From Lojkania enalia (Eukaryota > Ascomycota > Dothideomycetes > Pleosporales): a stretch of 64,000 nt of DNA. Positions 7,667-48,589 of the stretch are shown in pieces. The DNA lies in assembly GCA_010094045.1 (NCBI GenBank), contig ML986695.1, positions 1 to 64,000 on the forward strand, in the 5' to 3' direction. The translations under genes and the position numbers were made by a program. How positions within the stretch are numbered: position 1 is the first letter of the stretch; every line of letters starts with the position of its first letter. The notes below the pieces were generated by a model, which was given only the letters and a program-made list of their open reading frames with translations, searched no databases and was not told the origin of the DNA.

Positions 7667-10600
7667 CTAATTATTTCTCTTCCCCTTCTTGCCTTTCCTC
7701 CCCTCACCATCGCTCACCCTTTTTCCGTTTCCATTCCTCTCCCCCGCCCTATCATCCTCATCCTTCTCCGCTAGTAACCTCCCCAATGCCATATTAAACT
7801 TCTCCAACTGAGCGATATCGCCTACCTTGACACGCATATAATCAAACGCGACCGCGACTTTCATGTCCTTCGCTCGCACCTTGATGACCTGCTCACTAGG
7901 CATGTCAGGCTGAACGGCGTGATTATGAGGAAACGCTTTATCAACGCCAACATCCAGTTCCTCAGTCCGTGGATCGACGTCGTCCTCCATAGCAGGTCCA
8001 TCATTGACATCTTCGGCGGCACCCGGGTCCAGAAGCCCGTCTTCCTCGCCCTCCGCATCATTCTCGACCGTTTCGAGGACCGGTATCTTCTGGTAGCGCT
8101 GACTGAAATGTGTTAACACGACCGCCTTCGCTTTCATCTTGGCGCCGATGCCGAGAGCCTCCGAGGTCGTTGAATGTTTCTTCGCCTTTGCGTCGCTCTT
8201 CAGCTCGTCGTCGAAGGTAGCTTCATGGACAAGGACGGTGGAATCCTGGCCAATACGCGTAAAATGGATGCTGGGGCGACAATCTCCCGAGTACGAAACC
8301 TTGAGAGGCTTCGTCTTGATCTCGGACATCTCGTCCGCTGAGGAGTCGGGGAACGTGAGCGAGACAGCCATGGCACCTCGACAATGCGATACATAGCAGG
8401 CCTGGATATCCGATACACCAAGAACAGTCTCGTAATCTTCACGCCTGAGCATATCTTGGTCTGCCTTTCCTCGATTTGGCAATGGACATAACGACAATGT
8501 TGAACCAGGTTCCGAACCATCTTGATTAGACGTGATGTCCAAAGGAACGATGCGGCTGTAGCCGAAATCTTCTAGTGAGGAGTATTCGAACAGCCACCTA
8601 AGCATACCCTCGTGCGAGACCACAGACAACCCATATGTCGATACTTCGGTCGATATAGACGACATTGATGGAGGAGCATACACGGGAATGCTGTCGTGGA
8701 CGACGGCATACCATGCTTTGATAACGGATGCCGTGCCTAGATGATGATCGGCATGGAGGTGGCTGACCCATATCATTCGCAAGTTCCGTAGCACCTCGAC
8801 GAGTTCATCGGGTTTAAAGACGCGCTGAAGCTGTCCAAGCGTATTTTCTCCACAGTCGAGCAAGTAATTCCCGATACCCGGTACTTTAATGAGAGTAGCA
8901 GAGACATTCCGGTATTTGGAGGGCAAGGCGGAACCCGTGCCAAGGGTAATAATCTCAGTATCGGGACGCTGTATCCTCTCCCTCCAAGATTTCAAGACTT
9001 CTGCGTCGTTTTCAACGTCCCTTTGAGCAGACTGAGCTAGCTTAATGATATCTAGGGAGGTTGATTTCTCAACCTCGGAAACGTTTAGTAGAGGTGGTGG
9101 GCCAGCGTCTTTTGCCAATTCAAAGATAGGTTTCAGCCGAAACTTAAGACCTCTCTCTGCTCTTGTCGCACTCGAGACTGCCAGTCGGTTGCATGAAGCC
9201 CTGCCATATAGGCTATTTTGAGGGAGAGTAGAATTGTCATGAAATGGTAGCTGATATCTATCTGGATCAATTTGCCCTAAGCGGACCGTTTGGGCAGCGA
9301 CAGAGTCTAACGCCAATCGATTCGGGCATGTGTCTGCAGAAGAAATGACATGCTCTACCTTGTCCAGTTTCTGCATGAAGGTTTGAAGCGTAGGATGTCC
9401 TGCTATACCAGGGCCAAGAATCCAAATACAGAGGCGGATATCGTCCATGACAGTACCCGATAATATCTCTTCTCGCTGAAGTAGTGGCTCCAGATATTCG
9501 AGGGAAGGGACATCGAGTATTGCTACGCCCTGTGCTGGCTTCTCTGGGCCCATTACCATGTCACTAGTAATCGTTTCCCCGCTGGCATTCTTGACACTTT
9601 TCCCCTGCGTCAGAAGCCTAAAAATAGGCCCCGGTTGTATTCCTAGTTCTTGTGCGCGCTTAGCGTCAAATTTGCCTCGTGAAGGAAAAGTGTTTACAAT
9701 GTATGATATTGCTTCTACAGCGGGTTTTGTTGGAGGCAAAGCCTGGACAAGCGCGCCAGGCCATGGGGTCCGCACTAGGACTCTGATATCAGGGAGCGGC
9801 TCCTCTCCCCTAGGAAAAGGCCCAGCGTAGCTCTGCAACTCCTTGGTCTCTGGGTGTCGAATATATATTGCGGCCGGCATCTCAACCTCAGAGATGTGTT
9901 TTTCTACAAGCGTATCAAACTTCCAGCTCGAATTAAACATGTGGTCCAGGACCTGTGATCGAATACGATCAAATCTTGAATCTCTGTCCTCCTGGCTTTC
10001 TGAGACTGGAGCTTGTTCATCCTCAAAACTGTTAAGCACTTTATCGTACCTTTCCTGTTTTGCGGCGAGAGCATCTTCAAGCCAAGCTTCGTTGTCTTTC
10101 CGGGGAGGTTTCACCGCAAGAGCCCATACTCTAATATTTTGGTCCTTCCACGTCGGCGGAATAGCACCTTCATCCGTCCTCTCGACCATCGTCTCCTTGT
10201 ACTCTGTAATAGTGACCGGCATACCCTTCCTAAATATGAACCTACGACAAGTTGCAAACAAATGCTTCAAATTGGGCGGACCGTGGATGTTCAGCTTTGG
10301 CGGAACAGGTTCGGGGAGGTTCTTGGTACTTTTACTTCGCCAATACTCCAACGCGCTCTGGTATGCCGTCGCGGTCGCATCGGCCAATGTGAGAATTAGT
10401 CCAACGGTCCCTCCTACATTGCTCCATTCGGTCCTTCCAGTGACGAAGAAGTCCTGAACCTTCATCAAACGCATCCCATTCTGAGTGAGAGCTCGTTGTG
10501 TTCCTTCTGATTCATTTCCGAAAAGGTAATTCTGTTTGGCCGTCGTGAGCATGAGAGTGGTTCCAGGCGTATCCGCGGTCGGGGTCGTTACAAATTGGAT

Positions 10601-10867
10601 ATGAACATCCATTATTTTGCTCTCTATCACTCGCTGTGCTCCTCGTCGTTTAATAACGCGTTGTGTCTCGCGAACGGGGCTATCAGGTGGGAGGGGTTTG
10701 AGGAGTTGATAACGTTTGCGACCGCATTTGGAAAGATTCCAGTTTCTCTGCTTCGCCGGGGAGTATAGACCTCCGGCCTTGGATTTTCGAAGCTTTCGTT
10801 TTGGCGAAGCCTCGGATTTTGTTACTAGCAAGCGTGTACTCAGTATGGGGTTATTAGAGACGACCAT
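7667..10867 (-). CDS. TRZ1: Long-form ribonuclease Z (tRNase Z)
   Basis: An uninterrupted 1066-residue frame. tRNase Z cuts the 3' trailer from precursor tRNAs in nucleus and mitochondria so that CCA can be added. The long form is a tandem of two metallo-beta-lactamase-like halves. The N-terminal half keeps the family entry (VHIQFVTTPTADTPGT, then LFGNESEGTQRA) near residues 88-130 but lacks the metal site. The C-terminal half starts near residue 640 (LGTGSALPSKYRN) and carries the catalytic HLHADHH near residue 704, a further SGDCRPS block, and the late LTHFSQRY histidine near 920. The family usually starts at MDVHIQF, about 86 residues in. The basic leader before it could be a targeting sequence. 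The C-terminus is Lys/Arg/Gly rich. A separate in-frame open stretch lies just upstream (10874-11062). Identity is secure, exact start less so. Confidence 0.95.
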   Translation of the reverse strand: MVVSNNPILSTRLLVTKSEASPKRKLRKSKAGGLYSPAKQRNWNLSKCGRKRYQLLKPLPPDSPVRETQRVIKRRGAQRVIESKIMDVHIQFVTTPTADTPGTTLMLTTAKQNYLFGNESEGTQRALTQNGMRLMKVQDFFVTGRTEWSNVGGTVGLILTLADATATAYQSALEYWRSKSTKNLPEPVPPKLNIHGPPNLKHLFATCRRFIFRKGMPVTITEYKETMVERTDEGAIPPTWKDQNIRVWALAVKPPRKDNEAWLEDALAAKQERYDKVLNSFEDEQAPVSESQEDRDSRFDRIRSQVLDHMFNSSWKFDTLVEKHISEVEMPAAIYIRHPETKELQSYAGPFPRGEEPLPDIRVLVRTPWPGALVQALPPTKPAVEAISYIVNTFPSRGKFDAKRAQELGIQPGPIFRLLTQGKSVKNASGETITSDMVMGPEKPAQGVAILDVPSLEYLEPLLQREEILSGTVMDDIRLCIWILGPGIAGHPTLQTFMQKLDKVEHVISSADTCPNRLALDSVAAQTVRLGQIDPDRYQLPFHDNSTLPQNSLYGRASCNRLAVSSATRAERGLKFRLKPIFELAKDAGPPPLLNVSEVEKSTSLDIIKLAQSAQRDVENDAEVLKSWRERIQRPDTEIITLGTGSALPSKYRNVSATLIKVPGIGNYLLDCGENTLGQLQRVFKPDELVEVLRNLRMIWVSHLHADHHLGTASVIKAWYAVVHDSIPVYAPPSMSSISTEVSTYGLSVVSHEGMLRWLFEYSSLEDFGYSRIVPLDITSNQDGSEPGSTLSLCPLPNRGKADQDMLRREDYETVLGVSDIQACYVSHCRGAMAVSLTFPDSSADEMSEIKTKPLKVSYSGDCRPSIHFTRIGQDSTVLVHEATFDDELKSDAKAKKHSTTSEALGIGAKMKAKAVVLTHFSQRYQKIPVLETVENDAEGEEDGLLDPGAAEDVNDGPAMEDDVDPRTEELDVGVDKAFPHNHAVQPDMPSEQVIKVRAKDMKVAVAFDYMRVKVGDIAQLEKFNMALGRLLAEKDEDDRAGERNGNGKRVSDGEGRKGKKGKRNN

Positions 10868-33225: not shown

Positions 33226-35716
33226 TCAACCCAGGGTGAGGTATATCTGTTCGGTAGCAACTGCGTCCCAAACACCTTTCTCAACTCTCCCAAGTGCTTT
33301 CCGATACGCCACTCTATCTATCCACTCAACCCACAAGACATTGTAAAACTCGTATAGCCCAGAGTGTCTCGGACATTGAGGTCGATGCCATTCGTCGATG
33401 CTTTGCTTCTCAATATTCTGATTATCTACCGATCCAGCCGAGATTTCAACGAGTTCAAGAGGGGTACCAGGAAAAGGGATTCCTGGGTCCAAAGGTAGGC
33501 AGGTTAGTCGTATTGCACCTGCCCAATTCTTGTATTCATCGAGGAGGTCGGCAGATGCGCATGCGGACGCAAAAGATTTGTATGATTCTCCAAATTTGAG
33601 GAAGGCGCGTCGGGTTTGTGCATGCAAGTAGCGAGGGTTCTGAGGGAGCTCAAATGAATCTTCTTCGCTTTGCATGGGAATTGGATAACAGAATTCTTGA
33701 TTAGGATCGTAGGTATGTCGAAACATGGCCCGACCTTCCTTACTGACATGTCGGGACCATCCTGTTGGAAGACCTTCTTCGCCGTGGGAAGAAAGTAACT
33801 TCAATCGAGTATTGTGAACTGGTTTACGCTCGCTTTGCAGCGTGTCAGAGAAGGACCATGAAACAGTACCCACGGTGGTCCACGAGCAATAACCTTCCTC
33901 TGCATCAAAATCGAACCTCTCCTTAAGGTAAGATGCTGCGCTTCGCCAGCTTTCCGAATGGAGTGTCCCCTGCCATCCTATCCAGGACCAGCTGGGGAGG
34001 CAGGCCTCTGATACGGGCTTACGGACACTCCTACGGCGTTGTGGTGGCGTCCATGGCTGCCAAATTAGCGTTGCGTCAAAAAATGATCGGGGAAGCCCCG
34101 ATATAAAACTGCCGGGAAATACAGATACAAGAGCGAATAGCACGCCAGAGAAAGCATCAATGGCATCTTCTGGATATGTGAGATATCGTTTATTATACAT
34201 CGATACAAGCCTAGTATATCGATGCATATCAGGCCAGCGCGTGGGGTGGAACGGGCATACGACTACGCGGCTAGGTGGTTGAGGAGCTTCATAGACTTGT
34301 GTCGAAGTTGAACTATCATCACGCGATAAAATCTGTCCTTCATGCCAGGATGAACATGAGCATTCCCAGTTGACAGTGTTGTTGTGAAAAATGATTCTAC
34401 GTCGAGCAAAAAGATGCTCTTGAAAAGTCCATCCGCGAGAGAACCACTTCGTGCGCATAAAGTTCTGTGAGTGTTCTAGCATAATCTGATCATTCTGAAC
34501 TTGCGTGGACTGATACATCTGTGCTTGTGGCTTAGACCTCAGCTGCTCATTAGGCTTTTTGAATTTGATTCTTCTTTTTTCGTATAATCCTCCGCTTGCA
34601 TCCAGCTTTTCAGCTGCGACAATCGTGAATAGAGAATTTGAGAATAGTAAGTGCATCGCAGCAATCTCTGTTTGTTTAGACTGGGCCTCGTCCTGAATGA
34701 TGCAGAATCTGGACATTCAAATTCAATGCGTACCCTAATCATAAGACTTCAAATTTTACCTACCTGTCGATCCAGAGGTATCTTACCTCCAAATTACGAA
34801 CAAGTTCCATGGCGTCTTTTATAGTAGCTGGCAGATCCGTTCCGAGGCTTCTGAGTCCATTCGGCTTACAAAGAGCTTCGATATTGCTTATAGTTGTACA
34901 TGCGCTGTCCCCGGTGCCCCATACATAACTCAATGCAGCATATCTTGAGGTATCTGCGCTCCCCGGTACGAGGCAGTCCTTTGTAACATCGATTAGCCAT
35001 AGCGGACAGTAGTTGTCAGGAACTTGGAATTGACAAATGCGCTGGTGTCTGGTCTCACATGTATTTATCCAATTCCTGATCACGCCCAGGTAGATCTGGG
35101 ATCCAAGGAGCCGAGGGGCGATGCCAAATTCACTGGAACTGTTGCTCAGCTTGTCAACGTATGGCGCTAACGTTTTGAGATGCCAGGGCACTTGTTTGGT
35201 TACGGTGGTCGCACTAGCCGATTCACTACGTTTTGCTTGGAGCGGGGTGAGACGAGAGACTAGTTTGCCTCGATTTTCCCTTTCAGTCCTTGCACCCGCC
35301 TTATGGCCCTTCAAGTCTTGATCGAGGAATGAAAGCTGAGACTTTGATGATGAATAGAATCGTTCGCTGGTTGCGCGTCTCGTCATAAATCTTAGCCATG
35401 CTCGCTTGATCGACTCGTTGAAGCAGCTTGTGGATGTTGTCGACGTGGGGGAAGAAGGTATCTGTGTGTCTAAGTACATCGGAGGTATCCCGAGCCACTC
35501 AATAGATGCCGTCTTCTTGCTCGAGCCTCGCAAAACATGTCTCGGGTTGGGACACTGTGGTGGAAGAAGATAGTGCTTTGCTCTATGTACCTGGACCTCG
35601 CCCGATTCGTCGGCGTTGAAGTCGAATGCGTAGCCACATTTCTCACAAGTATTAGGCTCTCGCGCCACCCTGTCCGCCTTCGTGGTTAGGCAATTTGTAC
35701 CGTAATTTGGCTTCAT
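33226..35716 (-). CDS. HET-domain protein (heterokaryon incompatibility type)
   Basis: Exons 34764-35716 and 33226-34708, intron 55 bp (GTAGGT..CCAG), 811 residues. The HET domain starts near residue 262 (YAALSYVWGTGDS) and includes LPATIKDAMELVRNL and the split motif LWIDR-FCIIQDE whose halves join exactly across the intron. It continues to the SRGWTFQEHLFARR block near 425. HET domains trigger self/non-self cell death after hyphal fusion. The N-terminus has CEKCGYAF and a second Cys in LPPQCPNP, possibly a zinc-binding pair, and no signal peptide. The second motif normally reads LWIDALCI; here Arg-Phe replaces Ala-Leu. The neighbouring SRA gene is 269 bp downstream on the same strand. The partner locus is unknown. 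Confidence 0.88.
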
Positions 35717-48436: not shown

Positions 48437-48441
48437 AAAAA
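48437..48441 (-). terminator. Pol III terminator of tRNA-Thr
   Basis: On the minus strand a TTTTT run begins six nucleotides past the tRNA 3' end, and a second T5 follows at 48429-48433. This is normal for a functional Pol III gene. Confidence 0.8.
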
Positions 48442-48447
48442 CAAATA

Positions 48448-48589
48448 TGCCAACTACTGGAATCGAACCAGTGATCTTCGCATGTACTTGCATGTGGGGT
48501 ACAAGTGCGACGCGTTACTTGATGATGTCAGTAAATCGTGCGATCATTTTAGAATGATCAGTGGAACTCACCCACTGCGCCAAGCTGGC
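48448..48589 (-). tRNA. tRNA-Thr (UGU) with anticodon-loop intron and a 54-nt D-loop insertion
   Basis: Exon pieces 48572-48589, 48500-48517 and 48448-48483 join to a 72-nt tRNA. Acceptor stem GCCAGCT/AGTTGGC with A73; D stem GCG/CGC; anticodon stem TCGCA/TGCGA with loop CTTGTAA; variable AGATC; T arm ACGG-type stem ACTGG/CCAGT with loop TTCGATT. The anticodon is UGU. The 16-nt insertion 48484-48499 sits at 37/38, the standard place, and pairs with the anticodon loop (ACTTG/CAAGT). The second insertion, 48518-48571, sits in the D loop after G18G19. A box (TGGCGCAGTGG) and B box (GGTTCGATTCC) are intact and a T-run terminator follows, so it looks expressed. Confidence 0.85.
48518..48571 (-). 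other. Spliceosomal-intron-like insertion in the tRNA D loop
   Basis: 54 nt on the minus strand, from GTGAGTTCC to CATCATCAAG. It has a strong 5' splice signal (GTGAGT), a branch-like TACTGAC 11 nt before the end, and a terminal AAG. Its length is typical of introns in this window. Two hairpins are possible: exon CAGTGG with insertion CCACTG, and GATCATT with AATGATC inside. Removing it exactly restores a standard D arm. Confidence 0.75.

Follow-up and report, generated by a model that had tools for sequence, protein, structure and literature searches.

The window analysed here is a stretch of 64,000 nucleotides (nt) from the ascomycete Lojkania enalia (assembly GCA_010094045.1, contig ML986695.1, positions 1 to 64,000), and our subject is a gene for threonine transfer RNA (tRNA) with anticodon UGU, which lies on its minus strand at 48448..48589 and holds two inserts, together with a set of similarly interrupted tRNA genes in the same genome. 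By protein comparison, PAN3 of the window is 99% identical to CC78DRAFT_536747 of L. enalia, a pleosporalean dothideomycete, and its UBX protein is 100% identical to CC78DRAFT_502415, with the next named species at 85%. Read from 48589 to 48448, the gene is GCCAGCT TG GCGC AGTGG (54 nt) TAACGCG TCGCA CTTGTA (16 nt) A TGCGA AGATC ACTGG TTCGATT CCAGT AGTTGGC A. By reading of the sequence, exon 1 (48572..48589, 18 nt) supplies the 5' strand of the acceptor stem, positions 8-9, the 5' strand of the D stem and A14 to G19; exon 2 (48500..48517) supplies the remaining D loop, the 3' strand of the D stem, the 5' strand of the anticodon stem and CUUGUA with the anticodon UGU; and exon 3 (48448..48483) supplies A38, the 3' strand of the anticodon stem, the variable region, the T arm, the 3' strand of the acceptor stem and the discriminator A. 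Once both segments are removed the exons total 72 nt with the stems present, and once the 54 nt alone are taken out ARAGORN calls tRNA-Thr(tgt) with a 16-nt intron at position 37, i(37,16). These results bear out the initial annotation of this DNA, which had proposed two removals leading to a 72-nt cloverleaf, one of them an ordinary 16-nt tRNA intron at the 37/38 site (48484..48499). Neither the raw gene nor the 64-kb window yields a tRNA with ARAGORN, and Rfam reports no family at cut-off in the window; at the Thr gene it gives one weak, misplaced tRNA match of 16.7 bits.

The 54-nt insert (48518..48571), placed from the sequence and with ARAGORN, interrupts the D loop at site 19/20 and reads GTGAGT...TACTGACATCATCAAG on the minus strand. 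It begins with a candidate 5' splice site, GTGAGT (48566..48571), and ends with a candidate 3' splice site, AAG (48518..48520), with a branch-point-like TACTGAC (48527..48533) 9 nt before its 3' end. These signals are present as first annotated; the boundary is less exact than was stated, as it can slide by 1 nt, and the spacing given as TACTGAC-n9-AAG is actually TACTGAC-n6-AAG, the distance being 9 nt only when AAG is counted. Within the insert, GATCATT-CTAA-AATGATC (48542..48559) forms a 7-bp hairpin, which has 8 pairs in the minimum-energy fold. The A box (TGGCGCAGTGG, 48572..48582), the B box (GGTTCGATTCC, 48459..48469, also recovered by a B-box pattern search) and the stems are intact, and a run of five T resembling a terminator for RNA polymerase III (Pol III) lies at 48437..48441, again as annotated; of the marks of a pseudogene (lost stems, boxes or conserved bases, and spare intact copies), none was found for this gene. 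In the centroid fold of the unspliced gene, exon CAGTGG pairs with insert CCACTG (48559-48577, minus strand), which leaves GTGAGT in the hairpin loop, and it is possible in this model that the pairing controls splicing.

The interruption had been taken for a feature of a single odd gene. In the whole assembly (58.1 Mb in 400 contigs) we find instead at least 14 tRNA genes, including three for initiator tRNA-Met, with inserts at eight noncanonical sites in eight isoacceptors; the sites, numbered by eye, fall in the D loop, at 26/27, in the variable region and in the T arm. Besides Thr-UGU in the window (19/20), the set comprises initiator Met in C17 (L048) and C83 (L049) at 54/55 and in C1 (L051) at 55/56; Asp-GUC in C21 (L077), C49 (L088), C283 (L112) and C4 (L060), and Leu-CAA in C24 (L081), all at 15/16; Leu-AAG in C50 (L089) and C45 (L134) at 26/27; Glu-CUC in C22 (L079) at 46/48; Gly-GCC in C146 (L047) at about 45/46; and Arg-ACG in C74 (L135) at 53/54. 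Related copies are not independent, and the separate gene-and-site combinations number nine. Every one of the 14 inserts starts with GT and ends with AG, and their lengths are 48-58 nt; the pattern YTRAY ends 8-11 nt before the insert end in 12 of them (9 nt for Thr), and the narrower CTRAY is present in 11. Single-base-shuffled inserts combine GT, AG and a branch point at a rate of 0.00066 per insert. The 13 further genes, whose GT...AG inserts match the Thr insert in size and also sit at noncanonical positions, thus support the spliceosomal-intron reading first offered for the Thr gene.

Insert-free paralogs exist for five isoacceptors (Asp L045, Leu-AAG L039, Glu-CUC L092, Gly-GCC L010 and Arg-ACG L035) and fix the insert boundary there without recourse to splice signals, save for a slide of 1-3 bases; genome queries with exon sequences found none for Thr-UGU, initiator Met or Leu-CAA. 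Essential tRNAs of this kind can escape standard gene finders: ARAGORN gives the expected isoacceptor for one of the 14 unspliced genes and for 12 after removal of the insert, when some tRNA is called in all 14. The two exceptions after removal are Leu-AAG in C45, whose anticodon is AAA, and Arg-ACG, for which ARAGORN puts the 37/38 intron elsewhere. Among the inserts themselves, blastn at E 0.05 gives mutual matches between the Asp inserts alone, those of different isoacceptors remaining unmatched.

Initiator tRNA is indispensable, and each of the three genes found for initiator tRNA-Met has its T loop interrupted (at 54/55 or 55/56). A query of the assembly with the mature initiator and Thr sequences found no uninterrupted initiator tRNA-Met; it likewise found no tRNA-Thr(UGU) without the insert, whose presence elsewhere the initial annotation had seen as a matter to check, and the interrupted gene is the sole UGU copy found. 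A pattern for the anticodon arm of the initiator, GGGCYCATAACCC, matches the genome in exactly three places, all at interrupted genes (one match for the backwards control). Once spliced, the three sets of initiator exons are the same at 71 of 72 positions, with the T loop AUCGAAA, which we take to be typical of eukaryal initiators, whereas the introns of these genes match at 22-29 of 50-53 aligned positions. The D-loop-interrupted Asp genes behave similarly: tRNA exons are identical in three of the four copies, and the introns of all four, which retain GT, CTAAC and CAG, match one another at 26-40 of 50-53 positions. Constant exons, drifting interiors and kept splice signals, in both the initiator and the Asp genes, have the look of a working intron. 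Since the cell cannot do without initiator tRNA and no uninterrupted gene for it was found, removal of the inserts from the RNA is very probable. The Thr-UGU and Leu-CAA genes are less telling in this respect, since their codons might be read by other tRNAs through wobble.

Inserts at 15/16 and in the T arm split an internal promoter box, and the splice sites partly restore it; by eye, the AG of the Arg-ACG intron rebuilds the exon B box GTTCGACCC. In the same gene (L135, C74), the T-arm intron starts GTGCGTTCGACTC, and its 5' end holds a B-box-like GTTCGACTC.

As to the machine that removes the inserts, the spliceosome is likely, because their signals and size match the introns of messenger RNA (mRNA) genes: the introns of the PAN3 and UBX genes in the window measure 56, 57, 55, 127 and 57 nt (55-57 nt in four of the five), although these are GT-AG by construction of the prediction script. 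We consider it highly probable from the sequences that the inserts are introns removed by the spliceosome, and that the 54 nt of the Thr gene are a U2-type GT-AG intron, one of at least 14 in tRNA genes of this genome. We infer transcription, insert removal, the identity of the machine and the order of the steps as follows: Pol III would transcribe the interrupted tRNA gene; the nuclear spliceosome would cut out the D-loop, variable-region or T-arm intron by way of the 5' GU, the branch point and the 3' AG; the joined exons would fold as a normal tRNA, whose ends would be trimmed; and a 37/38 intron, where present, would then be excised by the tRNA splicing endonuclease, with tRNA ligase sealing the exons. 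In further support of this reading, U6 genes are present in the genome; U6 itself is a Pol III gene, and the two strong copies (L124 and L125) are each a full-length family match without an intron; a third, diverged U6-like sequence just under the family cut-off (L126:1501-1605) is perhaps a U6 pseudogene.

More broadly, we think it probable that spliceosomal introns have repeatedly invaded tRNA genes in this fungus, such that translation initiation would depend on the spliceosome (every initiator tRNA-Met being spliced in its T loop), several tRNAs would pass through two unrelated splicing machines, and introns would split or remodel Pol III promoter boxes, being kept while their interiors drift freely. 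Textbooks treat tRNA introns and mRNA introns as unconnected, each kind with enzymes of its own. If the proposed reading is true, Pol III genes, for all their internal promoters and very short exons, are open to colonisation by spliceosomal introns; making initiator tRNA requires the mRNA-splicing machine; and both intron gain and the spliceosome's demands on a transcript (cap, polymerase II, exon length) become directly testable.

Several observations weigh against spliceosomal removal. YTRAY occurs near the end of two of the five mRNA introns in the window, a small sample and an inexact match to the tRNA set, and two of the 14 tRNA inserts (initiator Met in C1, and Gly) lack it, with CTAAG and CTTAC near that place. 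The interrupted genes have short first exons, measured by eye at 14 to about 70 nt, and the usual cap is absent from Pol III transcripts, which might hinder spliceosome assembly. The Leu-AAG copy in C45, whose anticodon is now AAA, and the Asp copy in C4, whose D arm is shortened, look decayed, and the initiator negative rests on a 400-contig assembly in which the 18S/internal transcribed spacer junction pattern has no match. Single genes are weak evidence as well. When 2542 single removals were tried on the Thr gene, 135 gave an ARAGORN tRNA with the right anticodon, and three of these combined GT-AG with a branch point; in 2000 trials with a shuffled insert, some valid cut was GT-AG in 32% and both GT-AG and furnished with a branch point in 7%. 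Valid GT-AG cuts with a branch point arose in 3.4% of shuffled inserts for Leu-CAA, 4.3% for initiator Met C1, 0.9% for C17 and 0.2% for C83, and the real C1 insert fails the branch-point test. Because valid cuts are so frequent in shuffled inserts, the Thr gene taken alone is only suggestive, and its D-loop case might be a chance resemblance, whatever the other inserts are, the more so as no paralog fixes its boundary. This is nevertheless highly unlikely: its size, its 9-nt branch-point distance and its kind of site are common to the 13 other inserts; GTGAGT, TACTGAC and AAG are each found again among them; and the Thr insert shares a 14-gene series and is therefore far beyond chance.

The tRNA splicing endonuclease might instead cut at these unusual positions by way of a bulge-helix-bulge, on the model of nucleomorphs and of the red alga Cyanidioschyzon, but GT-AG ends and branch points have, to our knowledge, no role for that enzyme. 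A strict-motif scan found the full bulge-helix-bulge at none of the 14 junctions, Thr reaching five of nine pairs, and on this ground we set the motif aside. Partial pairing was seen, with at least six of nine pairs at five junctions and seven of nine at two; random places given the same slides average 2.4 of 14 at six or more pairs, with five or more such junctions in 7% of sets and two or more junctions with seven pairs in 14%, so that the excess is slight; the 14 genes also include four Asp copies related to one another. Noncanonical or multiple eukaryotic tRNA introns are described for nucleomorphs, C. merolae and green algae in the available portions of PMC4090602 and PMC4033280, the latter of which also reports that the yeast enzyme cuts at 37/38 only, and we judge this route very unlikely here. 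That the interrupted genes are dead, as insertions or decayed copies from which no tRNA is made, would fit the usual view of short D-arm and T-arm insertions in eukaryotic tRNA genes as pseudogenes, as put in the excerpted text of PMC4090602; it would fit also the two decayed-looking copies and the insert-free paralogs of five isoacceptors. We nevertheless reject it, as very unlikely for a set that contains all three initiator genes found, with exons agreeing almost throughout; moreover, the tRNA exons of three Asp copies would hardly be identical, and random insertions would not all show GT-AG with branch points. Least credible, to the point of being nearly negligible, is retention of the insert, which would enlarge the D or T arm of the RNA. 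The Thr insert does hold a perfect hairpin, and its whole unspliced precursor folds better than shuffles (z -3.4); yet retention leaves GT, branch point and AG unexplained, as well as the T-loop interruption of initiator tRNA, and the D arm is absent from both the minimum-energy and the centroid fold of the unspliced Thr gene. Two further candidates were rejected for the Thr insert: group I and group II introns have a catalytic core and usually exceed 200 nt, as against 54 nt with no Rfam intron family listed there, and a canonical tRNA intron would lie at 37/38 and not at 19/20.

Spliceosomal removal of the inserts is best compared with five known situations. The 16-nt intron of the Thr gene is an ordinary nuclear 37/38 intron, whereas the 54-nt insert beside it sits at 19/20 with mRNA-type signals. 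Introner-like elements, reportedly described by van der Burgt in 2012, occur in Dothideomycetes and are marked by many near-identical copies in a genome. Of the present inserts, those of the Asp genes alone match one another, and the one searched against the whole genome, within a 261-base Thr region, matched only itself. Ectopic spliceosomal introns in ascomycete ribosomal DNA (rDNA) are said to have been reported by Cubero in 2000 and by Bhattacharya in 2000. According to the accessible parts of PMC8527467 and PMC11889510, ascomycete and lichen rDNA carries such introns, and the former states that a 57-bp rDNA intron of Cladonia grayi was removed from yeast ribosomal RNA (rRNA). As with the tRNA inserts, a gene of filamentous ascomycetes that does not encode mRNA is interrupted by short introns of GT-AG type, but the product is rRNA made by RNA polymerase I, whereas the Lojkania inserts interrupt tRNA. 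The part of PMC5832005 available to us names U3 and U6 as the sole small structured RNAs in which introns are known to be frequent; in fungal U6 small nuclear RNA (snRNA) and U3 small nucleolar RNA (snoRNA), too, introns with GT-AG ends and a branch point lie within short genes for structured RNAs, but those are snRNA and snoRNA genes, whereas here tRNA genes are concerned, some with a second intron that would be handled by another machine. Finally, the excerpts of PMC4090602 describe D-arm and T-arm tRNA introns, several per gene, in cryptophyte and chlorarachniophyte nucleomorphs, with excision shown for Guillardia theta. Those introns and those of C. merolae share the D and T arms with the Lojkania inserts; the differences, as far as the excerpts of PMC4090602 and PMC4033280 go, are that Guillardia introns are 3-24 nt long and those of the red alga are tied to bulge-helix-bulge motifs, whereas the Lojkania inserts are 48-58 nt long, GT-AG and without a full motif. 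Among open-licence literature, judged from titles and the starts of abstracts, we found no paper on spliceosomal introns in tRNA genes; the introns of U6, U3 and rDNA are the nearest precedents and, as spliceosomal introns outside mRNA genes, lend support to the reading.

The genome-wide survey of tRNA genes combined several searches. The Rfam tRNA family gave 46 matches above cut-off and four below, with 63 of 2591 candidates scored; three of the four matches below cut-off are the 5' parts of the initiator tRNA-Met genes, each with its T loop broken by a different segment. A B-box pattern matched 81 times in the genome against 92 for its backwards control, so these matches are mostly chance; the 58 that lay outside loci already identified were scanned for paired T and acceptor stems. 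Additional copies came from DNA queries with tRNA exons and from two D-arm patterns, whose 11 and 10 matches (7 and 0 for the controls) led to two Phe and three Pro genes with ordinary introns. No gene for Tyr, Trp, elongator Met, Leu-UAA, Arg-UCU or Val-AAC was recognised in the sequences examined, perhaps owing to limits of the search. The tally of about 74 tRNA genes is a lower bound and consists of 45 + 1 + 7 + 2 + 5 genes without a noncanonical insert and 14 with one: the 45 are the Rfam matches minus Gly L047 and take in at least one odd copy (L046); the one is the Gln gene in L026; the seven take in the odd pair L064 and L090; the two are Asn copies known as query matches alone; and the five are the Phe and Pro genes. 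The tRNA genes found are few and mostly carry a canonical intron, which ARAGORN reports in 28 of 47 genes.

Some of the copies met in this survey are unusual in their own right. L064:180-322 (plus strand) and L090:232-90 (minus strand) are 143-nt tRNA-like genes with Rfam tRNA scores of 39.4 and 41.3 bits, and each holds in its anticodon arm a 75-nt insert that is largely conserved between the two. L046 (C10:610621) has an Ile-like tRNA body and reads GGT, and L050 (C17:163557) and L136 (C64:157854) are odd or decayed copies that are Lys-like and Ser-like, respectively. Elsewhere in the window, a gene on the minus strand at 7669-10612 has tRNase Z domains, which belong to tRNA 3' processing, and its presence alongside the Thr gene is probably a coincidence; a gene with a HET domain (heterokaryon incompatibility) lies at 33226-34716, also on the minus strand.
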